DNA of 64,000 nucleotides from Saccharopolyspora gloriosae (lineage in GTDB: Bacteria > Actinomycetota > Actinomycetes > Mycobacteriales > Pseudonocardiaceae). How positions within the stretch are numbered: position 1 is the first letter of the stretch; the number at the start of each line of letters is the position of its first letter. Of this stretch, positions 297 to 47,129 are shown piece after piece. The position numbers were made by a program, and so were the translations under genes. Under the pieces are notes generated by a model. The model saw only the letters and a program-made list of their open reading frames with translations, was not told where the DNA came from and made no database searches. Location: assembly GCF_014203325.1 (NCBI RefSeq), contig NZ_JACHIV010000001.1, forward strand, positions 2,047,501 through 2,111,500, given 5' to 3'.

Positions 297-1799
297 TCAG
301 TCGCCGTGGAGGTCTCGGACTTCTGCTTTGCGGATCTTGCCGGAGCCCGTGGTGGGGAGGTGGTCGGCGAAGCGGACCGAGCGGGGGACCTTGTAGCCCG
401 CGAGCCTGCCGCGCAGGTACTCCAGCAGGGCTGCGGGGTCGATGGTGGTGCCGGGGGCGGGTACTACGACGGCGCGGCCCACCTCGCCCCACTTGGCGTC
501 CGGGACCCCGATCACCGCGCAGGCCGCGACGCCGGGGAAGCCGTGGACGGCGTTCTCCACCTCGGCGGGGTGCACGTTCTCGCCGCCGGAGATGAACATG
601 TCCTTGAGGCGGTCGACGATGTAGACGTAGCCGTCCGCGTCGACCGTGGCCACGTCACCGGAGTGGAACCAGCCGTCGCGCAGCACCTCGGCCGTCTCGG
701 CGGGCAGGCCCCAGTAGCCGGGCATCACGTTCGGGCCGCTGACCAGGACCTCACCGTGCTCGCGCGGGTCGACGTCGCGGCCGGACTCGCCGACGACGCG
801 CACGTCGGTGAAGAACGACGGCACCCCGGCCGAGCCGATCTTGCCGGTGGCGTGCTCGCGGTCCAGCAGCAGCGCCCCGGGTGCGGTCTCGGTCATGCCG
901 TAGCCCTGCACGAAGCTCAGCCCGCGCTCCAGGTAGCGGCGGATCGTCGCGGTCGGCACCGGGGAACCGCCGCACAGCAAGGTGCGCACTCCCGACAGGT
1001 CCGTGTCGAGCCAGCGCTCGTGCGCGGCGAGCGCGTCGTACATCGCGGGCACGCCGAACATCAACGTCACCCGCTCGCGCTCGATCGCGGCCAGCGCCGC
1101 CGCCGGGTCGAAGGACGAGTGCAGGACCACCGTGCCGCCCTTGAGCAGCGTGGGCAGGCACACCATGCCCAGCGCGGCGGCGTGGAACAGCGGAGCGGCG
1201 ACCAGCGCGCACTCGTCGGCGGCCAGGTCGGTTTCGACCAGCACGTTCACGCAGTTCCAGGTGAGGTTCCCGTGCGTGAGCACCACGCCCTTGGCGCGGC
1301 CGGTGGAACCCGAGGTGTACATGATCAGGCACGGATCGTCGGTGCCCACCGGCAAGTCCACCCGTTCCGCCGGGGTGTCGGCGCCGAGTCCGATCTCGCC
1401 GTCGGCGGCCACCGCGACCGGGCGGGCGCGAGTGGTGAGCGCGGCGACCGTCGCGGCGTGCTCGGAGGTGTGGATCAGGAGGGTAGCGCCGGAATCGTCG
1501 AGCACGTGCTCGATCTCCGGTGCGGTCAGCCGGAAGTTCACCGGCACGAACACCGCCCCCGTCGAGCCGCACGCGAACAGGACTTCCAGGTACGCGGGAT
1601 GGTTCGGTCCCAAGTAGGCGACCCGGTCGCCGGGGCGCACCCCCGCCGCCCGCAGGCCGTGCGCGAGGCGCCGCACCCGGACGTCGAGCTCGGCGTAGGT
1701 GGTGGACCTGCCGTCGTGGCGCAGCGCGGTCCGGTGCGGCGTCATCCTCGCCCGCCGAACGGGCCAGGAGCCGAGACCCTGGTTTCGCAACGGGTTCAC
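297..1799 (-). CDS. fcs: Feruloyl/4-coumaroyl-CoA ligase-type acyl-CoA synthetase
   Basis: An ANL-superfamily acyl-CoA synthetase of 500 aa, activating a carboxylic acid with ATP and CoA. The adenylation P-loop YTSGSTGRAKG is at about residues 161-171, followed by YGMTE, the hinge region SGDVATVDADGY...VDRLKD, and the C-terminal lysine motif TGSGKIRK. The GTG start at 1799 gives the usual N-terminus (NQGLGSWPVRRARMTPHRTAL); ATG 1745 would cut into that conserved stretch. It lies 104 bp downstream of the hydroxycinnamoyl-CoA hydratase/lyase gene on the same strand, the classic fcs-ech pairing for ferulate and coumarate side-chain shortening. Substrate is inferred from that neighbour. The fatty-acid branch of the family remains possible. 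Confidence 0.85.
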   Translation of the reverse strand: MNPLRNQGLGSWPVRRARMTPHRTALRHDGRSTTYAELDVRVRRLAHGLRAAGVRPGDRVAYLGPNHPAYLEVLFACGSTGAVFVPVNFRLTAPEIEHVLDDSGATLLIHTSEHAATVAALTTRARPVAVAADGEIGLGADTPAERVDLPVGTDDPCLIMYTSGSTGRAKGVVLTHGNLTWNCVNVLVETDLAADECALVAAPLFHAAALGMVCLPTLLKGGTVVLHSSFDPAAALAAIERERVTLMFGVPAMYDALAAHERWLDTDLSGVRTLLCGGSPVPTATIRRYLERGLSFVQGYGMTETAPGALLLDREHATGKIGSAGVPSFFTDVRVVGESGRDVDPREHGEVLVSGPNVMPGYWGLPAETAEVLRDGWFHSGDVATVDADGYVYIVDRLKDMFISGGENVHPAEVENAVHGFPGVAACAVIGVPDAKWGEVGRAVVVPAPGTTIDPAALLEYLRGRLAGYKVPRSVRFADHLPTTGSGKIRKAEVRDLHGD

Positions 1800-15198: not shown

Positions 15199-15247
15199 AG
15201 TGAACGGACCGTTCGTCCAACCAGATCGGACGAACGGTCCGTTCACT
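15199..15247. repeat. Family B hairpin, copy B1
   Basis: A 49-bp element. AGTGAACGGACCGTTCGTCC pairs perfectly with its reverse complement across a 9-nt loop (20-bp stem). It lies 18 bp past the SDR stop in a convergent gap. Probably a bidirectional transcription end. Confidence 0.85.
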
Positions 15248-15293
15248 CGAACCCCCGAGGCTCCAGCGGCGGTGTTCGCGCCGCTCCGGAAGG

Positions 15294-15342
15294 AGTGAAC
15301 GGACCGTTTGCCCAACGGGATTGGACGAACGGTCCGTTCACT
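15294..15342. repeat. Family B hairpin, copy B2
   Basis: Same 49-bp layout as B1 but the left arm reads CGTTTGCCC, giving one G-T pair and one mismatch. Its right end contains the TGA stop codon of the minus-strand CPBP gene (15338-15340). Confidence 0.85.
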
Positions 15343-18547: not shown

Positions 18548-18596
18548 AGTGAACGGACCGTTCGTCCAACGAGATGGGACGAACGGTCCGTTCACT
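18548..18596. repeat. Family B hairpin, copy B3
   Basis: 49 bp with a perfect 20-bp stem like B1 and a different loop. First of five copies after the response regulator, 82 bp past its stop. Confidence 0.85.
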
Positions 18597-18641
18597 CCGA
18601 CCAAGCCCACCTCCAGCATGCGAACCGCGCCGATCTGAGCG

Positions 18642-18690
18642 AGTGAACGGACCGTTCGACCAACGACATTGGTCGAACGGTCCGTTCACT
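18642..18690. repeat. Family B hairpin, copy B4 (covarying)
   Basis: The left arm has CGTTCGACCAA and the right arm TTGGTCGAACG, so the usual T-A pair is A-T here. The stem reaches 22 bp with a 5-nt loop. The paired change argues that base pairing itself is selected or copied. Confidence 0.85.
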
Positions 18691-18747
18691 CGTGCCGTGG
18701 GTTCGACGGTGGGCGCTGTGGATCTTGCGCGGCGGGTGCCGTTGTGG

Positions 18748-18796
18748 GGTGAACGGACCGTTGGTCCAAGGGGATTGGGCGAACGGTCCGTTCACT
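18748..18796. repeat. Family B hairpin, copy B5
   Basis: Left arm CCGTTGGTCCAA against right arm TTGGGCGAACGG: one G-G mismatch and one G-T pair interrupt the stem. It starts with GGTGAAC instead of AGTGAAC. Confidence 0.8.
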
Positions 18797-18862
18797 CGGC
18801 AACGAGAGGCGTGGCGAGCGTTGTGGATCTTGTGATGCGCTGCGGCAGGTCGAGGGATTCGG

Positions 18863-18911
18863 AGTGAACGGACCGTTGGTCCAAGGGGATTGGGCGAACG
18901 GTCCGTTCACT
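18863..18911. repeat. Family B hairpin, copy B6
   Basis: Same arms as B5, except that it starts AGTGAAC. Similar flanks (TGTGGATCTTG) suggest amplification as part of a larger unit. Confidence 0.8.
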
Positions 18912-18971
18912 CAACGTGCCGTGGGTTCGACGGTGGGTGTTGTGGATCTTGCGCGGCGGGTGCTGATGTGG

Positions 18972-19020
18972 GGTGAACGGACCGTTGGTCCAACGGGATT
19001 GGACGAACGGTCCGTTCACT
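18972..19020. repeat. Family B hairpin, copy B7
   Basis: Left arm CCGTTGGTCCAA, right arm TTGGACGAACGG with one G-G mismatch. TCA at 19016-19018 is the stop codon (TGA, minus strand) of a small membrane-protein gene. Confidence 0.8.
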
Positions 19021-23206: not shown

Positions 23207-23255
23207 AGTGAACGGACCGTTCGTCCAAGGGGATTGGGCGAACGGTCCGTTCACT
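23207..23255. repeat. Family B hairpin, copy B8
   Basis: Single 49-bp copy filling the 72-bp convergent gap between the second DUF397 gene and the flavin monooxygenase. Left arm CGTTCGTCCAA, right arm TTGGGCGAACG with one G-T pair. It marks the end of the peptide-exporter-monooxygenase operon. Confidence 0.85.
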
Positions 23256-23263
23256 TCAACCGC

Positions 23264-24484
23264 TCAGCGGGTCGTGGCCTTGTCCGCGCGGCTGCCGAGG
23301 GCTTCGCCTCGGCGGCACGCCAGGTACCAGCGCTGGCCGTTGTCGTACCAGCGCAGGCCTTTGCGGACGGCGGAGACCTGCGACGCCTGGTGCACCCGGT
23401 ACTGCCACGGCGGCTGGTAGCCGTGCCGGGCGGCCATCGCGTAGGCCACGTCGGCGGCGTTGCGGTCAAGGTAGCGGTCCGCGCGTTCGAACCACGCCAT
23501 GCTGGTGCGCCCGGCCGCTTGCAGCGGTCGCAGCGCGGCTCGGCCCTGCTGGTCGAAGTCGCGCAGCGCGGTGTCCAGGTGCTCGTGGTCGTGCAGCTTC
23601 TGCGCCAGGATCACCGCGTCCATGATCGCCAGCCGGGTGCCGGAGCCGATGGTGAAGTGCGTGGTGTGCGCGGCGTCGCCGAGCAGCATCACGTTGTCGT
23701 GCAACCAGGTCCGGTTGAGCACCTGGGTGAACCGCTGCCAGCGCGCGGGTTGCCCGCGGGACTGGCTGATCAGCGAATGCCCGTCCAGCGGGGCGGCGAA
23801 GATCTTCTCCAGCAGCCGCACCGTGTCCTCGTTGTCGCGGGAGTCGAAGCCCAGCGCCTTCCAGGTCTGCTCGGTGCACTCCACGATGCAGGTGCTGATG
23901 CCGGCGCTGGACGGGTAGGCGTGGAACCAGATCCAGCCCGCCGAGGTCTGCTCGAAGGCGAACGTGAACCGGTCGAACACCATGTCCGTGCCCAGCCAGA
24001 TGTACGGATTGTTGCCGGTCTCCACGCGGGTGCCGAACTCCGCCTCGTGCAGCGAGCGAACCTTGCTGTTCGCCCCGTCCGAGCCGATGATCAGGTCGCT
24101 GTCGGCGAGCTCGGAGAGGTCGTCCACGCCGTGCTCGTAGCGGATGTTCACGCCCAGGTCTGTGGCGCGTTCGGCGAGCACGTCCAGCAGCGTGGACCGG
24201 TTCACGCTGAAGCCGTAGCCGCCGAGGAAACCGACATCGCTGCCGCCCAGCACGATCTGCTGCTCCTGCCACAGCGTGGAGGCCGAACGGATCTGCTGCG
24301 CGCTCTCGGCGTCGTTGGCGTAGAGGGGGTCCAGCAGGTTGTCCCAGTAGACGACGCCCCACCCGTAGGTGGCTCCGGGCGGATCACGTTCGATGACGGT
24401 GATGTCGTGTCCGGCGTCGCGCAGCTTCGCGGAGATCGCGAAGTACAGCCCGGCCGGTCCTGCGCCGACACACGTGATCTTCAT
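23264..24484 (-). CDS. FAD-dependent monooxygenase of the peptide operon
   Basis: A class A flavoprotein monooxygenase of 406 aa: FAD Rossmann motif GAGPAG (7-12), WGVVYWDN (42-49), the DG motif IIGSDGANS (133-140), and the GD motif MLLGDAAHTTHFTIGSGTRLA (266-285). This pattern resembles the hydroxylase part of salicylyl-CoA 5-hydroxylase/anthraniloyl-CoA monooxygenases and the indole-oxidising VioC/VioD group. ATG 24484 follows AGGAGG by 5 nt. It is the last gene of an operon with an ABC exporter and a Trp/His-repeat peptide. Hydroxylation of Trp or His in that peptide is a hypothesis; a small-molecule substrate is equally possible from sequence alone. Confidence 0.85.
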   Translation of the reverse strand: MKITCVGAGPAGLYFAISAKLRDAGHDITVIERDPPGATYGWGVVYWDNLLDPLYANDAESAQQIRSASTLWQEQQIVLGGSDVGFLGGYGFSVNRSTLLDVLAERATDLGVNIRYEHGVDDLSELADSDLIIGSDGANSKVRSLHEAEFGTRVETGNNPYIWLGTDMVFDRFTFAFEQTSAGWIWFHAYPSSAGISTCIVECTEQTWKALGFDSRDNEDTVRLLEKIFAAPLDGHSLISQSRGQPARWQRFTQVLNRTWLHDNVMLLGDAAHTTHFTIGSGTRLAIMDAVILAQKLHDHEHLDTALRDFDQQGRAALRPLQAAGRTSMAWFERADRYLDRNAADVAYAMAARHGYQPPWQYRVHQASQVSAVRKGLRWYDNGQRWYLACRRGEALGSRADKATTR

Positions 24485-24541
24485 GGGCACCTCCTGGACG
24501 GGGACGGCGCGGGCCGCCCGGTTGTTGTTCGACGACGGTGA

Positions 24542-26407
<1,866 letters not shown>

Positions 26408-26434
26408 GTCGTACCCCCTGTTGCTGACGGGAGT

Positions 26435-26464
26435 GACGCCCGCACCCCGGAAGGTGCGGGCGTC
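26435..26464 (-). terminator. Perfect stem-loop between peptide gene and exporter
   Basis: GACGCCCGCACC and GGTGCGGGCGTC form a perfect 12-bp stem with a 6-nt loop, 21 bp after the peptide stop and 27 bp before the exporter start. No U-tract follows. In small-peptide operons such hairpins give partial termination or protect the upstream mRNA, so that the precursor is made in excess of its exporter. Confidence 0.7.
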
Positions 26465-26485
26465 ATCCGGAAATGAGCCGTGCCG

Positions 26486-26641
26486 CTACTTCTTGTGGCC
26501 CCAGTGGTGGTGGCCCCAGCCCCAGCCGTGACCCCAGCCCCAGCCGTGGCCCCAGCCCCAGCCGTGGCCCCAGCCCCAGCCCCAGCCGTGCTTGCGACGA
26601 CGGTTGTTCACGTACACGAACACGCTCTTGATGCTGCTCAT
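26486..26641 (-). CDS. Gly/Trp/His-repeat small peptide, RiPP-precursor candidate
   Basis: A 51-aa peptide (53 aa if ATG 26647 is used; GGAAAGG spacing of 9 nt favours 26641). It begins MSSIKSVFVYVNNRRRKH, a hydrophobic then basic segment with a possible RRRK processing site. The rest is repeats of GWGWGH (four His-headed blocks, encoded by 18-bp DNA repeats), ending HHHWGHKK. It has no Cys, Ser or Thr after residue 5, so lanthionine or thiazole chemistry is excluded; Trp and His are the only likely targets. It heads an operon with an ABC exporter and a flavin monooxygenase. Alternatives are an unmodified metal-binding or antimicrobial peptide. I know no named family for it. Confidence 0.7.
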   Translation of the reverse strand: MSSIKSVFVYVNNRRRKHGWGWGWGHGWGWGHGWGWGHGWGWGHHHWGHKK

Positions 26642-27044
26642 CGCCATGCACCTTTCCGCATTGCCGATTTCCCCAGAGAAGAGCGTTCTCCTGTGATGTT
26701 CCCCCGGCAGGTGCCGGGAAAACTCGATTCCGGGTCGCGACCCCGGATGCATCACGTCCGCCGAACGAGTTGGTTCACTCGCCCCATGTCGGCGAAACCG
26801 GCGCGTTCCGCACCGGCCCGTGGGTGCCCGGTGTCCTTTCCGGACTGCCGCGCTTCTCCAGTTCTCTTCCAGAAGGTAGGTGCCCCCCATTCGGCGAACG
26901 ACCCGACCTGCCAACGAGTAGACCCCAAGCAGCGGAGCGTGCCCAGAGGACTATCGGCCCTGATTTGCCGCTGATCTCCGGAAATCCGCGTCGCCGTGCC
27001 GAACGCGGCCGAACGCGGACCATGGTGGCGGAGAGGGGGCGGGC
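26642..27044. other. Divergent promoter region (peptide operon / PLP decarboxylase)
   Basis: A 403-bp gap between divergent genes. It contains the GGAAAGG ribosome-binding site of the peptide and GAGAGGGGGCGGGC before the decarboxylase. The stretch just upstream of the peptide gene (26640-26730) is less GC-rich than its surroundings, as expected for a promoter. No repeat-family copy or further gene was seen. Confidence 0.5.
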
Positions 27045-28403
27045 ATGGATCTGCGAGCGTGGGCAGGGCGGGCGGTCGACGAGATCTCGGGGTGGCAGCG
27101 CGGTTTCGGCGAGGTCGAACCGCATCCGGACGCGGTGGTCTCCGACGCCGATTTCGCGGTGGCCTTCGAGGAGCTGCTCGGCCGGTTGCGCGACACCTAC
27201 CCGTTCCACCACCCCCGCTACCTGGGGCAGCTGATCAAGCCGCCGCACCCGGCGGCGGTGGCGGGCTACCTGGCGACGATGCTGCTGAACCCGAACAACC
27301 ACGCGCTCGACGGCGGACCGTCCACGACCGCGCTGGAGCGGGAGGCGGTGGCGCGGCTGGCGGCGATGCTGGGGATGCCGGACGCGCTCGGCCACCTCAC
27401 CACCAGCGGGACCGTCGCGAACCTCGAAGGTCTTTTCGTGGCACGGGAAACGCGTCCCGGTTCGGCGATCGCGCACAGCGCGCACGCGCATTACTCGCAC
27501 GCCCGCAACTGCCACCTGCTCGGCGTGCGGTCGGTGCCGGTCCCGGTGGACCGGCTGGGGCGGATGGACCTGGCGGAGCTGGAGGTGCTGCTGGGGCGGG
27601 AGGACATCGGCACGGTGGTGCTCACGGCCGGAACGACCTCGCTGGGTGCGGTGGACCAGATCGACGAGGTGCTGGAACTGCGGCGGCGCCACGGGTTCCG
27701 GATCCACGTCGACGCGGCCTGCGGCGGATTCTTCGCCCTGATCGCCGACGACGCGCCGGACGGGGTCGCGTCCGCGCCGTTCCGGGCGCTAGCCGAGTGC
27801 GACTCGGTGGTCGTCGACCCGCACAAGCACGGCCTGCAGCCCTACGGGTGCGGGGCGGTGCTGTTCGCGGACCGGTCGGTGGCGCGGTTCTACCGGCACG
27901 ATTCACCGGCCACGTATTACACGTCGGCGGAGCCGCACCTGGGGGAGATCTCGCTGGAGTGCTCCCGTTCCGGAGCTCCGGCGGCGGCGCTGTGGCTGAC
28001 GTTCCGGCTGCTACCGCCGACTCCGGACGGGCTCGGGCGGGTGCTGCGGGCAGGTCGGCGGGCCGCCCTGCGCTGGACCGAGCTGCTGGCCGAGTCGCCG
28101 GTGCTGTCGGCCTACCAGCGCCCGGAGCTGGACATCGTCGCGGTCCTGCCCGAAGCCCCCGACATGTCCACCGTGGATCAGCGGACGACGTGGATGCTGC
28201 ACGAGGGGATGCGGGGCGGCGGCGCCTACCTGGCCGCGCTCGAAGTCTCCGCGGCGGAGCTGCGGGCGCGCGGGCACCCGGTCCGGGAGGACGCGCCGGG
28301 CGCCCGGATCTTGCGCAGCGTGCTGCTGAAACCGGAGCACGAGCACTGGATCGGGCGCTGCCACGACGAGATCGAAGACCTGGCGCGGCGAGCCGCCGGA
28401 TGA
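27045..28403 (+). CDS. PLP-dependent group II amino acid decarboxylase
   Basis: A fold-type I PLP enzyme of 452 aa. It shows the cofactor-ring residues around SGTVANLEGL, the PLP-Asp in HVDAACGGFF (Asp223), and the Schiff-base lysine in VDPHKHGLQPYGCGAVL (Lys261). N-terminal FHHPRYLGQLIKPPHP is typical of the aromatic-amino-acid/glutamate decarboxylase group. Substrate could be Trp, Tyr, 2,4-diaminobutyrate or another amino acid; sequence reading cannot decide. It diverges from the repeat-peptide operon and faces the mycofactocin genes, but no functional link is visible. Confidence 0.85.
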   Translation: MDLRAWAGRAVDEISGWQRGFGEVEPHPDAVVSDADFAVAFEELLGRLRDTYPFHHPRYLGQLIKPPHPAAVAGYLATMLLNPNNHALDGGPSTTALEREAVARLAAMLGMPDALGHLTTSGTVANLEGLFVARETRPGSAIAHSAHAHYSHARNCHLLGVRSVPVPVDRLGRMDLAELEVLLGREDIGTVVLTAGTTSLGAVDQIDEVLELRRRHGFRIHVDAACGGFFALIADDAPDGVASAPFRALAECDSVVVDPHKHGLQPYGCGAVLFADRSVARFYRHDSPATYYTSAEPHLGEISLECSRSGAPAAALWLTFRLLPPTPDGLGRVLRAGRRAALRWTELLAESPVLSAYQRPELDIVAVLPEAPDMSTVDQRTTWMLHEGMRGGGAYLAALEVSAAELRARGHPVREDAPGARILRSVLLKPEHEHWIGRCHDEIEDLARRAAG

Positions 28404-28978: not shown

Positions 28979-29674
28979 TCACCCGGTGAGGTTTGGGGTC
29001 TCGCCGCGCCACTCCGCTACCGCGCGGGTGAGGGAATCGGCCCAGCGGTGCAGGATCGCGTCACCGGCCGTCGCGTCGGCCGTCGTCGGGTCGCCCAGGA
29101 CGCCGTTGGGGCTGACCGGGCGCACGCCCCCGGAGCGGAGGCGGTCCATCAGCTCGGGCAGCGGCGCGGTGTTCCCGGCCGCGGCGACGTCCGCGGCGAC
29201 CTCGCCCGGGTGCAGGTGCAGCATCGCGGAGGTCTCGGTGCGCCCGGCGTGGCTGTCGTCAGCCGGGGCGTCCGGTGACCACACGAGCACCCGCCTGCCC
29301 TCGGAGCGCAGCAGCGCGGCGGCCCGGTGCGCGGTGGGCAGGTTGCCGCCGTGGCCGTTGACCAGGACCACGCCCGCGAAGTGGTCGGCGGAGCGCACCA
29401 GCTCCACCAGCAGCAGCCGCAGCGCCTCGTGGCCGATCGACAGGGTGCCCGGGAACTCCGCGTGCTCCCCGCTGGCGCCGTAGGGCACGGCGGGTGCCAC
29501 GACGACGTCCGCGACTCGACGGGCGAGGCGGGCGCACAGCTCCTCGGCGATGGCGGTGTCGGTGCGCAGCGGCAGGTGCGGGCCGTGCTGTTCGGTGGCG
29601 CCCAGCGGGATCGCCAGCGTCGGGGCGTGCGCGGCGAGTTCCGGCCAGCGCATCGCCCCCAGGTGCTCGCTCAT
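28979..29674 (-). CDS. mftE: Mycofactocin precursor peptide peptidase MftE
   Basis: A creatininase-family metallopeptidase of 231 aa. Metal and active-site motifs are LGATEQHGPHLPLRTD, VNGHGGN and DSHAGRTETSAML (His, Glu). In mycofactocin biosynthesis it releases the C-terminal decarboxylated Val-Tyr product from MftA. ATG 29674 overlaps the mftF stop (ATGA). It is the last gene of the operon. Confidence 0.92.
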   Translation of the reverse strand: MSEHLGAMRWPELAAHAPTLAIPLGATEQHGPHLPLRTDTAIAEELCARLARRVADVVVAPAVPYGASGEHAEFPGTLSIGHEALRLLLVELVRSADHFAGVVLVNGHGGNLPTAHRAAALLRSEGRRVLVWSPDAPADDSHAGRTETSAMLHLHPGEVAADVAAAGNTAPLPELMDRLRSGGVRPVSPNGVLGDPTTADATAGDAILHRWADSLTRAVAEWRGETPNLTG

Positions 29675-31026
29675 CGCGCTGATCCTCCGGTGAGTCGCGG
29701 CAGCAGGGCCGCCGGGGTGCGGTGCCGTGCGCAGCCCGCCCAGACCCCGGCCCCGTAGGCGAGGTCGTCGAGCACTCGCAGTGCGAGCCAGGACGGCGTC
29801 GGTCGGGGACCGCGCAGCGCGTCCAGCAGGCACGGCAGCAGGGCCGCGAGCAGGACGAGCCGGGCCCGCCTGTTCACCAGGGCGGGCAGCGCCAGCAGCG
29901 GCCACCAGTCGCGGCGCACCGCCTCGGCCAGCAACCGGCCCGCGCCGAGGTGCGCGAGCGCGGCCAGCCGCCACGACTCCCAGTCCGGCACTCCGTGCGC
30001 CCGCAGCTTGCGCGGCAGCGCGCTCGCCCCGGCCACCGCCAACGCGGCGGACAGCACCGGGCGCCCGGCGGCGAGGGCCGTCCACGACGCGGCGCTCCAC
30101 GCCGAGAGCCGGGCGCAGCTGAGCGAGCCGGGATGGCGGCGGGACAGCGGTGCCGCGGAGCCGCCGTAGTCGAAGCGCTGGCGCAGCCACGCCCGCAGCC
30201 GGGGCCGCGCCCGGTGCCGCACCACCGACTCCGGCGCGTACCGCACGGATCCGCCGTCCGCGAGCAGGCGCCACACCAGGTCGACGTCCTCGCCGAACCG
30301 CAGCGCCTCGTCGAACCCGCCCACGTCGTCGAGGCTGTCTCGGCGCACCACGAGGGCGGCGCTGGGCACGTAGCTCACCCGGCTCATGGGCCGCACGGCC
30401 GCTGCCGTCGTCCCCAGGTCGAGGCCGCAGCGGTCCGCTTCGTAGGCCGCGATCCGGCCGCCGGTCCTGGCGCCGCGGACGCGGGGCGCGACCGCCCGCA
30501 CGGCCGGGTCGGCGAAGTGGCGCAGCAGCGGGTCGAGCCACCCTGGTTCCGGTAGCGCGTCGGCGTCGAGGAACGCGACGAGCTCCGTGGTGGCCCGCCG
30601 CCACCCGGCGTTGCGGGCGGCGGCCGGACCCCGCGGAGCTCGGTGCCGCAGGGCGGCTTCGGGGACGGGGGGTGTGGAACCGTCGTCGACGACGATTCGG
30701 CTCGGCAGCTCCTCGGTCGCGGCCAGCAGCGCGGCGAGCCCGGCCGGGTCGTCCTTCACCGGGATCACAGCGGTCACGTCGGCGGGCCCGAGCGTGCCGG
30801 GCGGTGGCTCCGGGTGCGCCAGCCCGGCCTCGATCAGCCGCCGCGCCAGGGCCCCACCGGAACGCACGGGTTCCCCGTCGAGCCACTGGTCGATCAGCCG
30901 GGCCGCGGTCTCCCCGACGCGCAGCAACCGCACGGGAGACCCGCCGAGCAGCACCCTGCCGTCGCCGGTCCGCCGCAGCGAGGAGTCCGCTACCAGCCGG
31001 GTACCCGCGGGCACCGGGGCGGTCAT
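29671..31026 (-). CDS. mftF: Mycofactocin glycosyltransferase MftF
   Basis: A GT2-family glycosyltransferase of 451 aa that adds glucose units to the mycofactocin core. It has VTAVIPVKD, VVDDGS, GPAAARNAGW, FLDADALPEPGWL (DxD), and FGEDVDLVWRL, followed by hydrophobic C-terminal segments suggesting membrane association. ATGA overlaps occur at both ends with the SDR gene and mftE. N-terminal LVADSSLRR...LLGGSPVRLLR agrees with MftF proteins. Confidence 0.92.
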   Translation of the reverse strand: MTAPVPAGTRLVADSSLRRTGDGRVLLGGSPVRLLRVGETAARLIDQWLDGEPVRSGGALARRLIEAGLAHPEPPPGTLGPADVTAVIPVKDDPAGLAALLAATEELPSRIVVDDGSTPPVPEAALRHRAPRGPAAARNAGWRRATTELVAFLDADALPEPGWLDPLLRHFADPAVRAVAPRVRGARTGGRIAAYEADRCGLDLGTTAAAVRPMSRVSYVPSAALVVRRDSLDDVGGFDEALRFGEDVDLVWRLLADGGSVRYAPESVVRHRARPRLRAWLRQRFDYGGSAAPLSRRHPGSLSCARLSAWSAASWTALAAGRPVLSAALAVAGASALPRKLRAHGVPDWESWRLAALAHLGAGRLLAEAVRRDWWPLLALPALVNRRARLVLLAALLPCLLDALRGPRPTPSWLALRVLDDLAYGAGVWAGCARHRTPAALLPRLTGGSAR

Positions 31027-31811
31027 GCGGTGAAACCGCCGTCGGCGTGCACCACGGTTCCGGTGATCGCCGATGACTCCGGAGAGCACAGGAACGCCAC
31101 CACGGCCGCGACCTCGTCCGGTTCCAGCAGGCGCTCCGTCAGCTGGTGCCGCGCGAATTCGTCCACATCGGACAGTTCGTAGAGCGCGCCGGTGGCGTCG
31201 AGCATGTCGGTGCGCGTGGAGCCCGGAGACACGGCGGTGGCGCAGATCCCGGTGCCGCGCAGGTCGGTCGCCAGGCCGCGGATCAGCCCGACCACGGCGT
31301 GCTTCGCGGCGTTGTAGGAGGTCAGCCGCCACAGCCCGGTGTGCGCGGCGGCGGAGGCCAGCGCCACGAACCGGCCGGAGCGCGGTGCGGGCCGCCGCAG
31401 CAGCGCGGGCACCGCGGCCTTGGCGAGGTGGGCGACGCCGTCCACGCCGACGGAGAACAGCGCGTCCCACTCGCGGTCCTCGGCTTCCCAGAACGGTGTC
31501 CCGCCCGCCATCAGCGCCGCCGCGCCGACCGCCGCGTCCAGTCCGCCGAACCGTTGCTCCGCCAGTGCGACGACGTCGCGCACCGCGTCGAGGTCCTGCA
31601 CGTCGGCGGCGACGTCGACGACGGAACCGGGGAATTCCGCGGCGAGCGCGGAAAGCTGCTCGACCGTCCCCAGCGGATAGTCGACGCGGGGGTCGTCGGC
31701 GCACCGGTCGACCGCCACCACCCGCCAGCCGCTCCCGGCGAGCCGGCGCACCACGGCGGCCCCGATGCCGCGCGCGGCTCCGGTGACGACGGCGACCCTG
31801 GGCTCGCCCAT
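31023..31811 (-). CDS. Mycofactocin-operon short-chain dehydrogenase
   Basis: A classical SDR of 262 aa with TGAARGIG (about 10-17) and YNAAK as the Tyr-x-x-x-Lys pair preceded by a catalytic Ser. It matches the mycofactocin-coupled SDR subgroup (VVHADGGFTA end). It sits between mftC and mftF, where mftD would be expected in many clusters. The start codon directly follows the mftC stop (TAGATG). Such SDRs are thought to hold NAD(H) tightly and pass electrons to mycofactocin; the substrate is unknown. Confidence 0.85.
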   Translation of the reverse strand: MGEPRVAVVTGAARGIGAAVVRRLAGSGWRVVAVDRCADDPRVDYPLGTVEQLSALAAEFPGSVVDVAADVQDLDAVRDVVALAEQRFGGLDAAVGAAALMAGGTPFWEAEDREWDALFSVGVDGVAHLAKAAVPALLRRPAPRSGRFVALASAAAHTGLWRLTSYNAAKHAVVGLIRGLATDLRGTGICATAVSPGSTRTDMLDATGALYELSDVDEFARHQLTERLLEPDEVAAVVAFLCSPESSAITGTVVHADGGFTA

Positions 31812-33008
31812 CTACGGCCGGAATCCGGCGAGCGGGCTGGTGTCGCACGCCCGGTCCGGGATCGCCTCGGGCTCCGGCGGACCCCAGCCGATGCCGACGG
31901 TCACCGGCTGCTTCTTCCGCCTGCCGCGGTGCGAATGGTCCTTGTCCGGCTTGGGGATGCTCGTTGCGACCCCGGCGAGCGCGCGTTCCCCGTTGCCGAG
32001 CACGCATTCCGGGTCCGGCCCGTCCAGCGGCAGCCCGGTGAAGAACTTCGCGGCCATGCACCCGCCTTGGCAGGCGTCGTAGGCCGAGCACGAGGTGCAG
32101 GCGCCGCCGGTCTGCGGTTCCCGCAGCCGCGCGAACAACTCCGATTCCCGCCACACGGAGCCGAATCCGCCGTCATCGCGCACGTTCCCCGCGAGGAACT
32201 CGTCGTGGATCGCGAACGGGCACGCGTACACGTCGCCGACGGGGTCGATGAGGCACACGACGCGCCCCGCGCCGCAGAGGTTCAGCCCCGGCAGCGGGGT
32301 GGAGCCCAGCGCGTTGAGGTGGAAGAACGAGTCGCCGGTGAGCACTCCCTCGCCGTGCGCGACGAGCCAGTCGTAGATCTCCCGCTGCTGCTCGGCGGTC
32401 GGGTGCAGCTCGTCCCACACGTCGGCGCCGCGACCGGAGGGCCGCAGGCGGGTGATGCGCAGCTGCGCGCCGTACTCGTCGGCGATCTCCTTGAACCGGT
32501 CCAGCTGCCCGACGTTCTCCCTGGTCAGCACGACACTGATCTTGAAGTCGCGGAACCCGGCGTCGCGCAGGTTCGCCATCGCGGTCAACGCCGTGTCGTA
32601 GGAGCCCGCGCCCCGCACCCGGTCGTTGACCTCGGCGGTCGCCCCGTCCAGGGACAGCTGCACGTCGACGTAGTCGGTGCCCGCGAGCCAGCGCGCCCGC
32701 TCCGGGGTCAGCCGCACGCCGTTGGTGGAGAACTTGACGCCCACCTGGTGGTCGACGGCGTACTCCACGAGCTCCCAGAAATCGGAGCGCACGGTCGGTT
32801 CACCGCCGCCGATGTTCACGTAGAACACCTGCATGCGTTGGAACTCGTCGATGACCGCCTTGCACTCGGCGGTGGACAGCTCGCGCGGATCGCGGCGCCC
32901 GGAGGCGGACAGGCAGTGCACGCAGGACAGGTTGCAGGCGTAGGTCAGTTCCCAGGTGAGGCAGATCGGGGAGTCCAGGCCGTGCTGGAAGTGCTCGATG
33001 AGCCGCAT
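31812..33008 (-). CDS. mftC: Mycofactocin radical SAM maturase MftC
   Basis: A radical SAM/SPASM enzyme of 398 aa. Cys25, Cys29 and Cys32 in CNLSCVHC bind the SAM-cleaving [4Fe-4S] cluster. The C-terminal SPASM region (CGAGRVVCLIDPVGDVYACPF, then CTSCSAYDACQGGC) binds auxiliary clusters. MftC decarboxylates the terminal Tyr of MftA and cross-links it to Val. ATG 33008 has AAGGAG upstream; mftB ends 29 bp before. The C-terminus contains HRGRRKK, ending in SPLAGFRP. Confidence 0.95.
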   Translation of the reverse strand: MRLIEHFQHGLDSPICLTWELTYACNLSCVHCLSASGRRDPRELSTAECKAVIDEFQRMQVFYVNIGGGEPTVRSDFWELVEYAVDHQVGVKFSTNGVRLTPERARWLAGTDYVDVQLSLDGATAEVNDRVRGAGSYDTALTAMANLRDAGFRDFKISVVLTRENVGQLDRFKEIADEYGAQLRITRLRPSGRGADVWDELHPTAEQQREIYDWLVAHGEGVLTGDSFFHLNALGSTPLPGLNLCGAGRVVCLIDPVGDVYACPFAIHDEFLAGNVRDDGGFGSVWRESELFARLREPQTGGACTSCSAYDACQGGCMAAKFFTGLPLDGPDPECVLGNGERALAGVATSIPKPDKDHSHRGRRKKQPVTVGIGWGPPEPEAIPDRACDTSPLAGFRP

Positions 33009-33037
33009 GGGCGTCTCCTTGCGTGGAGGTCGGCCGT

Positions 33038-33343
33038 TCAGCCGCGGGGCCGGATGGTGCCCGCGTCGCACAGCCCGGCGAGGGCCTGGAGGTAGCGCGG
33101 GTGCTGTTCGGCGGGCACGCCGGTCTCGGCGAGGGCGGCGTGCACGTCCGGCTGGTTCTCCAGTTCGCGGACGAGGGCGACGAGTTCCGGCGTCTTGAGG
33201 AACGACAACCGTCGGGTGGTGAAGTCGTAGACGAGCGCGCCGAACCGCTCCGGGCGCAGCGAGACGGTGGGGCTCAGGCGGTGCGGGCGGCCGGGGTCGA
33301 AGCCGGCCGCCGCGCCGGGCTCAGTAGACGCCGCACATGCCAT
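33038..33343 (-). CDS. mftB: Mycofactocin precursor-binding protein MftB
   Basis: A PqqD-like RiPP recognition protein of 101 aa that presents MftA to MftC. The core FDPGRPHRLSPTVSLRPERFGALVYDFTTRRLSFLKTPELVALV is characteristic. The only in-frame ATG (33343) lies inside the end of mftA, giving a 23-bp overlap and about 13 residues before the conserved start. A rarer start codon after the mftA stop cannot be excluded. Confidence 0.9.
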   Translation of the reverse strand: MACAASTEPGAAAGFDPGRPHRLSPTVSLRPERFGALVYDFTTRRLSFLKTPELVALVRELENQPDVHAALAETGVPAEQHPRYLQALAGLCDAGTIRPRG

Positions 33344-33431
33344 CGATCGACACTTCCTCGACGAGCAGGTCGTCTTCGACGCCGTCCACGGGTGCGGTGT
33401 CGGCGGGTGCGCCGTGCTGGGAATCGCTCAT
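33321..33431 (-). CDS. mftA: Mycofactocin precursor peptide MftA
   Basis: A 36-aa precursor ending LVEEVSIDGMCGVY, the conserved MftA C-terminus whose last two residues (Val-Tyr) become the redox cofactor core. GGGAGGA precedes ATG 33431 by 8 nt. It heads the operon mftA-mftB-mftC-SDR-mftF-mftE and diverges from mftR with an 82-bp gap. Confidence 0.96.
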   Translation of the reverse strand: MSDSQHGAPADTAPVDGVEDDLLVEEVSIDGMCGVY

Positions 33432-33484
33432 GGGATGCTTCCTCCCGATCACCTGCTGAGTTGTGATGGCGGGCACACAATAAC

Positions 33485-46870: not shown

Positions 46871-46919
46871 AGTGAACGGACCGTTCGTCCAAGGGGATTG
46901 GACGAACGGTCCGTTCACT
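46871..46919. repeat. Family B hairpin, copy B9
   Basis: 49 bp; AGTGAACGGACCGTTCGTCC with a perfect right arm; the stem extends to 22 bp through CCAA/TTGG around a GGGGA loop. Confidence 0.85.
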
Positions 46920-46986
46920 CGCTGATGCTTCGAGCGGGGGACCGCGTGCGCGCACCGCCAAGGCTTTGTGCGGATGGTTCGGATCG

Positions 46987-47035
46987 GGTGAGCGGACCGT
47001 TCGTCCAACGGGATTGGACGAACGGTCCGTTCACT
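46987..47035. repeat. Family B hairpin, copy B10
   Basis: 49 bp; left arm begins GGTGAGCGG (two changes), the rest pairs fully with the right arm. Confidence 0.82.
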
Positions 47036-47080
47036 CGAGGATGTTCGAACCGCCAGGCCGGTGACGGGTGGCCGGGATCG

Positions 47081-47129
47081 GGTGAACGGACCGTGTGCCC
47101 AACGGGATTGGACGAACGGTCCGTTCACT
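47081..47129. repeat. Family B hairpin, copy B11
   Basis: 49 bp; left arm CCGTGTGCCCAA carries several changes, while the right arm keeps the consensus. It ends 22 bp from the P450 stop. Confidence 0.82.

Follow-up and report, generated by a model that had tools for sequence, protein, structure and literature searches.

A Trp/Gly-repeat peptide gene paired with a VioD-like flavin monooxygenase gene across actinobacteria points to a RiPP-like family with a two-gene core

A 64,000-nucleotide stretch of the Saccharopolyspora gloriosae genome (contig NZ_JACHIV010000001.1, positions 2,047,501 to 2,111,500; referred to as the window; host genome 6.83 Mb in a single contig) carries on its minus strand a Trp/Gly/His-repeat precursor peptide gene, an ATP-binding cassette (ABC) exporter gene and a flavin monooxygenase (FMO) gene. 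Comparison with related loci points to a new, apparently undescribed family resembling ribosomally synthesized and post-translationally modified peptides (RiPPs), with probably exported peptides and a two-gene core of peptide and FMO. The precursor gene (26486..26647, minus strand) starts with ATG at 26647, its stop codon ends at 26486, and it encodes 53 aa plus stop, or 51 aa if started at the second Met. The protein consists of a basic leader-like part, MAMSSIKSVFVYVNNRRRKH (26588-26647), followed by GWGWGWGHGWGWGHGWGWGHGWGWGHHHWGHKK, a core (26489-26587) of GWGWGH-type repeats ending in HHHWGHKK, and the ribosome-site-like GGAAAGG is located directly upstream of the ATG. The exporter gene follows after a gap of 78 bp and the FMO gene after a further gap of 57 bp. 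The reading frame and both gaps were thereby confirmed for what the initial annotation had described as a 51-53 aa GWGWGH-repeat peptide heading the gene set.

The exporter gene (24542..26407, minus strand) encodes an MsbA-like ABC half-transporter of 621 aa with the Pfam domains ABC_membrane and ABC_tran, which is a probable exporter. No Pfam match to a C39 peptidase was detected in it, in agreement with its earlier description as peptidase-less. The FMO gene (23264..24484, minus strand) encodes a class A flavin adenine dinucleotide (FAD) monooxygenase of 406 aa with the Pfam domain FAD_binding_3, probably the modifying enzyme. VioD, the indole-ring hydroxylase of violacein synthesis, was the nearest solved structure in the profile search (E 7.4e-62, with the best non-VioD match at E 4.5e-22), and in a Foldseek search with the FMO structure model (mean predicted local distance difference test score 89) VioD entries occupied ranks 1-4 at 26-28% identity. 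The FMO thus belongs to the VioD fold and sequence superfamily, and its annotated resemblance to indole- and aryl-oxidising enzymes holds. Anti-phage defence was rejected as a function, as PADLOC gave no match for the FMO and only three partial matches (mad3, AriA, mad8) for the ABC protein.

The genetic association of peptide and FMO was followed in a first set of 41 loci, consisting of the window and 40 wider loci obtained by searching 200 genomes of the host's family with the FMO. A Trp/Gly open reading frame (ORF) adjoins the FMO or ABC gene in 22 of these. The 19 loci without it comprise five further FMO copies (L051, L054, L056, L060, L062), one contig end (L052) and 13 more distant FMO loci (L064, L066, L068-L078). 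Peptide and FMO are kept without the ABC gene in L046, L048 and L058, and the FMO gene is convergent to peptide and ABC genes in 8/22 peptide loci, which rules out a fixed three-gene operon. The divergent decarboxylase gene described below was likewise rejected as a core member, its cluster being present in only 8/41 loci (the genus, g13 and L058). Within the first set, an FMO subfamily at roughly 50-53% identity, some of its genes arranged as tandem pairs and none with the Trp peptide (L069-L072, L074-L077), has glycosyltransferase-, methyltransferase- and acyltransferase-like genes, named by eye, as neighbours.

In a second, named set, the 80 best FMO relatives were kept out of at least 572 that an FMO alignment search found in named genomes. 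A uniform rule was applied, accepting ORFs of 25-300 aa that carry five or more Trp within a Gly-rich 40-residue segment and lie on the same strand, no more than 1000 nt upstream of the FMO gene or 600 nt upstream of the ABC gene. Such an ORF was adjacent in 60/80 loci, and elsewhere in the same 829 kb only 3 ORFs were accepted, one of which is a second such peptide in L187. The same rule gave 0/13 at the more distant FMO loci (with 1 elsewhere) and 0/8 at the own genome's other FAD_binding_3 loci. Direct frame reading added L115, L141, L181 and L182, and revealed an internal stop in L164. Eight of the 80 loci are short of flanking DNA (L118, L122, L125, L143, L149, L158, L169, L177), and among the remaining 72 assessable loci the peptide frame is intact in 64, interrupted in 1 and absent from 7. 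The check proposed in the initial annotation, a search for small GW/H-rich ORFs beside FMO homologues across actinobacteria, thus gave a positive outcome, with the pairing spanning five families (Pseudonocardiaceae, Nocardiaceae, Streptomycetaceae, Frankiaceae and Geodermatophilaceae). The self-contained three-gene operon that it had also proposed was not upheld, given the convergent FMO genes and the absence of an exporter of at least 50% identity from 50/64 named peptide loci. The arrangement named as a refutation, exporter and FMO kept with the peptide gone, occurred once among the assessable named loci (L160), and there the exporter is decayed. The conserved core is peptide plus FMO, and the exporter lies outside it.

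A class-level FMO search matched 39/394 genomes (E <= 1e-100, own genome included), which may partly coincide with the named ones, and gave 29 new loci (L221-L249). At FMO identities of at least 52% a Trp/Gly peptide was present in 16/21, all with a lasso-type leader; in L225, L227 and L238 the contigs end too near the FMO (L227 holding a fragment only), and L237 and L241 have none. At 45-48% identity the filter found a peptide in 0/8 loci, with upstream frames viewed for six. An order-level search matched 2/298 genomes (E <= 1e-110, own included), both of the same family; taken alone it would suggest a narrow family, which is wrong given the wider matches. The pattern GWGWG-x-GWGW, searched phylum-wide, occurred in 11/396 genomes, many matches being simple GGNTGG repeats, and the useful match was an orphan precursor in the own genome. 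In an FMO tree of 114 rows, built by a quick method with Shimodaira-Hasegawa-like approximate likelihood ratio (SH-aLRT) supports only and several long branches flagged, a branch with support 99 separates 17 peptide-less outgroup rows from 97 pairing-clade rows. The peptide-less Saccharopolyspora copies are nested inside the pairing clade, as expected from later duplication or loss; L125, labelled peptide-less in the tree, is counted here as not assessable (78 nt past the FMO).

The N-terminal and export modules around this FMO clade are exchangeable. A Sec-like signal, defined by a simple rule (basic residue, hydrophobic stretch, A-x-A; not SignalP), was found in all 22 Nocardia and all 18 Streptomycetaceae peptides of the named set, and an ABC exporter accompanies 0/40 of them. 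The 16 other peptides outside Frankiaceae have the signal in 0/16 and an ABC exporter in 14/16; ten carry an IKxxF-type leader and six look leaderless, several of these six being Asp-rich. These IKxxF-type or leaderless peptides, mostly with an ABC exporter, occur in Saccharopolyspora and Pseudonocardia. A lasso-type leader, Y-x-x-P-x-[LIV]-x3-G-x-F-x3-T, is present in 8/8 Frankiaceae peptides and 0/56 others, and 2/3 tested Frankia peptides exceeded the cut-off of the NCBIfam lasso leader model. In contrast to lasso peptide precursors, the window's peptide lacks this leader and the Frankia cores are nearly without Asp or Glu for a ring. No lasso enzymes (B1, B2, cyclase) were noticed by eye beside the Frankia peptides, where no model scan was made, and PF13471, a domain of the lasso B2 type, occurs elsewhere in 4/4 Frankia genomes searched. 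Since ABC exporter, Sec-like signal and lasso-type leader replace one another, what is conserved is the pair of peptide and FMO; and since one FMO clade stands beside several unrelated modules, the substrate may be defined by the core rather than by the leader. Two lasso-leader Trp/Gly peptides were also seen within one locus (L234, L235, L236, L239; L187).

Trp, Gly and the dipeptides GW and WG occur in each of the 64 cores; the median core has 52% Gly and 24% Trp, and two cores have just two Trp. His is present in 46 (absent from 18), Cys in 26 (absent from 38) and Tyr in 12 (absent from 52), and Ala, Val, Ile and Leu each occur in at most 4/64; length and polar residues vary. Trp is the sole reactive side chain common to all 64 cores and VioD is the nearest solved relative of the FMO; hydroxylation of the Trp indole by the FMO is therefore the most likely chemistry predicted from the sequences. 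Of the earlier proposal of Trp or His oxidation, the Trp part is retained, and His oxidation was rejected as a common chemistry because 18/64 cores have no His. With regard to the suggested Cu- or Ni-binding peptide, obligatory His-metal binding is for the same reason unlikely as a common theme. A Cys lies within the last three residues in 16/64 named peptides (L110, L111, L112, L114, L115, L116, L117, L119, L120, L167, L171, L182, L184, L185, L186, L188).

Translation of the peptide frame is supported by genome comparison. Among 14 Nocardia precursors (91 pairs), differences numbered 1453/1136/3037 at codon positions 1/2/3. In genomes of the window's genus the repeat number changes in frame, G137 being 63 nt shorter and one genome keeping a single repeat. 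Another precursor, MQIMRIKSIFVYSGGGWGWGHG..., is encoded in the own genome at L106:6156-6311, and no FMO or ABC gene was noticed beside it in 14 kb. Similar orphans occur in a further two genomes of this genus, at L206 (about 1255-1560, minus strand) and L204 (about 1357-1593, minus strand, at an apparently different place), with no FMO noticed beside them. The orphans share the leader motif KS[IV]F and differ in their cores, which suggests that they may be served in trans.

We propose that a ribosomal peptide would be made from the 26486-26647 frame, that the adjacent VioD-like FMO would oxidise its Trp residues, most probably by indole hydroxylation, and that the adjacent ABC transporter would then export the product; we give this reading a probability of roughly 0.7. 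The leader may guide the enzyme or the exporter, and the product may work extracellularly. As in RiPP systems, a gene-encoded precursor with a leader-like part and a variable core is present (six named relatives look leaderless), and an enzyme of predicted modifying activity is encoded with it in 64/72 loci. No description of a Trp/Gly peptide-FMO system was found in the titles and abstracts of the open-licence literature, and Pfam and NCBIfam assigned the tested peptides to no named family except the lasso leader model, with KRTAP, DUF5972, GRP and lasso_cyano as matches below cut-off; to this extent the earlier statement that no described RiPP class fits was borne out.

Several observations weigh against the proposal. 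Genetic association is not equal to catalysis, and the modification is predicted. Seven of the 72 assessable named loci have no peptide, five in Saccharopolyspora (L121, L123, L127, L137, L179) and two in Pseudonocardia (L160, L166); the species of L121, L123 and L127 are also represented in the named set by copies with the peptide (L115, L117, L119), and the L137 and L179 genomes carry further FMO copies. The seven include close FMO copies, for which another function or action in trans has to be assumed. By NCBIfam the FMO scores 209.5 bits against the VioD equivalog, below its cut-off of 620. Its top score is to salicylyl-CoA 5-hydroxylase (NF006101, 380.8 bits, cut-off 1078), and this match spans only profile positions 1-360 of 768. 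VioD and salicylyl-CoA 5-hydroxylase both hydroxylate rings; the latter is bifunctional, whereas the FMO lacks its second half. VioD (PDB 8gqr, 8h0m, 3c4a) remains the best match in sequence and fold among solved structures, yet at the low identity given above, and the neighbour of the FMO is a ribosomal peptide gene rather than violacein genes. No cognate protease was recognised, as the ABC protein lacks C39 and no conserved one was noticed nearby (by eye and clustering), and Sec-signal forms are unusual among RiPPs. For the genus of the window itself, differences show only a weak bias between codon positions (56/53/76), and a small Saccharopolyspora set shows none (23/23/22).

The strongest rival holds that the peptide is an unmodified structural or metal-binding exported protein, and that a small aromatic compound produced by the FMO, such as a quinone-type cross-linker or pigment, associates with it extracellularly. 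The FMO family does resemble enzymes acting on small aromatic substrates, close FMO copies exist without the peptide, and the cores are Gly-rich with His, Asp or Arg. However, many loci have only peptide and FMO adjoining, with no conserved small-molecule-pathway gene seen, and it is Trp that is universal in the cores, not metal ligands such as His. We consider this explanation unlikely.

The hairpin between peptide and exporter (26434..26465, minus strand), already noted in the initial annotation, proved in a stem search to have a 13-bp perfect stem. A stem after the precursor is common, not universal, among relatives. Perfect stems of at least 12 bp lie between precursor stop and next gene in 28/59 loci (one precursor, in L184, being mis-picked), compared with 2/59 stretches after the FMO and 0/59 shuffled sequences. 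With one mismatch allowed in a fixed 150 nt, stems of at least 13 bp follow the precursor in 36/64 named loci, compared with 10/192 random stretches and 4/64 shuffled sequences, and 25/64 loci, mostly Nocardia, have no stem even of 11 bp by this rule. The stem sequence varies from group to group, and of 29 stretches compared with mononucleotide shuffles, those of L063 (z 0.4) and L113 (z -0.3) are no more stable than shuffled. Where present, the stem would fit a processed or attenuated transcript giving more precursor than enzyme, and the intercistronic hairpin probably sets such a precursor excess. 

The next alternative is that the Trp-rich ORF serves only for regulation, ribosome stalling at its Trp codons working the hairpin in trp-type attenuation of the FMO or ABC gene, with the peptide itself inert; it draws on the order of Trp codons, hairpin and enzyme gene. 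Against a purely regulatory ORF stand the Sec-like signals in 40/64 and lasso-type leaders in 8/64 peptides, the orphan copies located apart from FMO and ABC genes, the FMO genes that are convergent, hence not downstream, in 8/22 first-set loci, and the third-position excess in Nocardia. The locus does not have the character of a Trp-attenuator leader, and this alternative is very improbable.

That the element acts untranslated, as G-rich DNA or RNA with a possible quadruplex, is suggested by the G-rich, 18-nt period of the repeat DNA and can practically be dismissed in view of the third-position excess in the 14 Nocardia sequences, the in-frame length changes, the signal peptides and leaders, and the fixed position before FMO or ABC.

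As for function, a peptide of a coat or matrix that is redox-active, cross-linkable or metal-binding would fit the cores, which are of low complexity and variable in length, better than a target-specific antibiotic. Their varying polar residues and scarcity of Ala, Val, Ile and Leu likewise look like a material, matrix, redox or metal role rather than a single high-affinity target. Mussel and squid DOPA (3,4-dihydroxyphenylalanine) and Gly/His-repeat proteins are comparable in their low-complexity repeats of Gly, aromatic residues and His, and in the DOPA proteins a ring is hydroxylated. Here Trp replaces Tyr, the system is a bacterial two-gene one known from genes, and no homology is claimed. 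A wider view, tentative and on the whole rather doubtful, is that extracellular Trp/Gly polypeptides, with many or most Trp hydroxylated by the FMO and delivered by three routes, would be the bacterial equivalent of DOPA proteins, based on Trp and forming a cross-linking, redox-active or pigmented coat. For ribosomal peptide chemistry, the pairing of a lone FMO and a Gly/Trp repeat peptide would be an enzyme-substrate logic that has apparently gone unreported and, if true, might provide a Trp polymer that is genetically encodable and hydroxylated at many sites. FMO or peptide homology offers a handle for the family in Nocardia, Streptomyces, Frankia, Pseudonocardia and Saccharopolyspora genomes.

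An inverted repeat with 22-bp arms lies past the FMO gene (23207..23255, no strand assigned) and is perhaps a terminator. It had been annotated as the terminal hairpin of the unit; the structure is present, but it belongs to a palindrome, GTGAACGGACCGTTC, of which further copies are dispersed over the window, and is therefore not specific to the peptide-ABC-FMO unit. The palindrome has 24 half-site matches in the window (at most one mismatch) versus 0.03 expected, grouped at 15200-15341, 18549-19019, 23208-23254 and 46872-47128.

Divergent from the peptide gene, a pyridoxal phosphate (PLP) decarboxylase gene is located at 27045-28403 (plus strand), whose best NCBIfam match is of the tyrosine/aromatic type and below every cut-off. 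A mycofactocin cluster is located at 28979-33476 (minus strand), 2.3 kb from the peptide-ABC-FMO unit, with MftA, MftB, MftC, the mycofactocin-coupled short-chain dehydrogenase/reductase (SDR), MftF and MftE all above the NCBIfam cut-offs. A tandem repeat array with periods of 18 and 54 bp was observed at 50-220 of the window.
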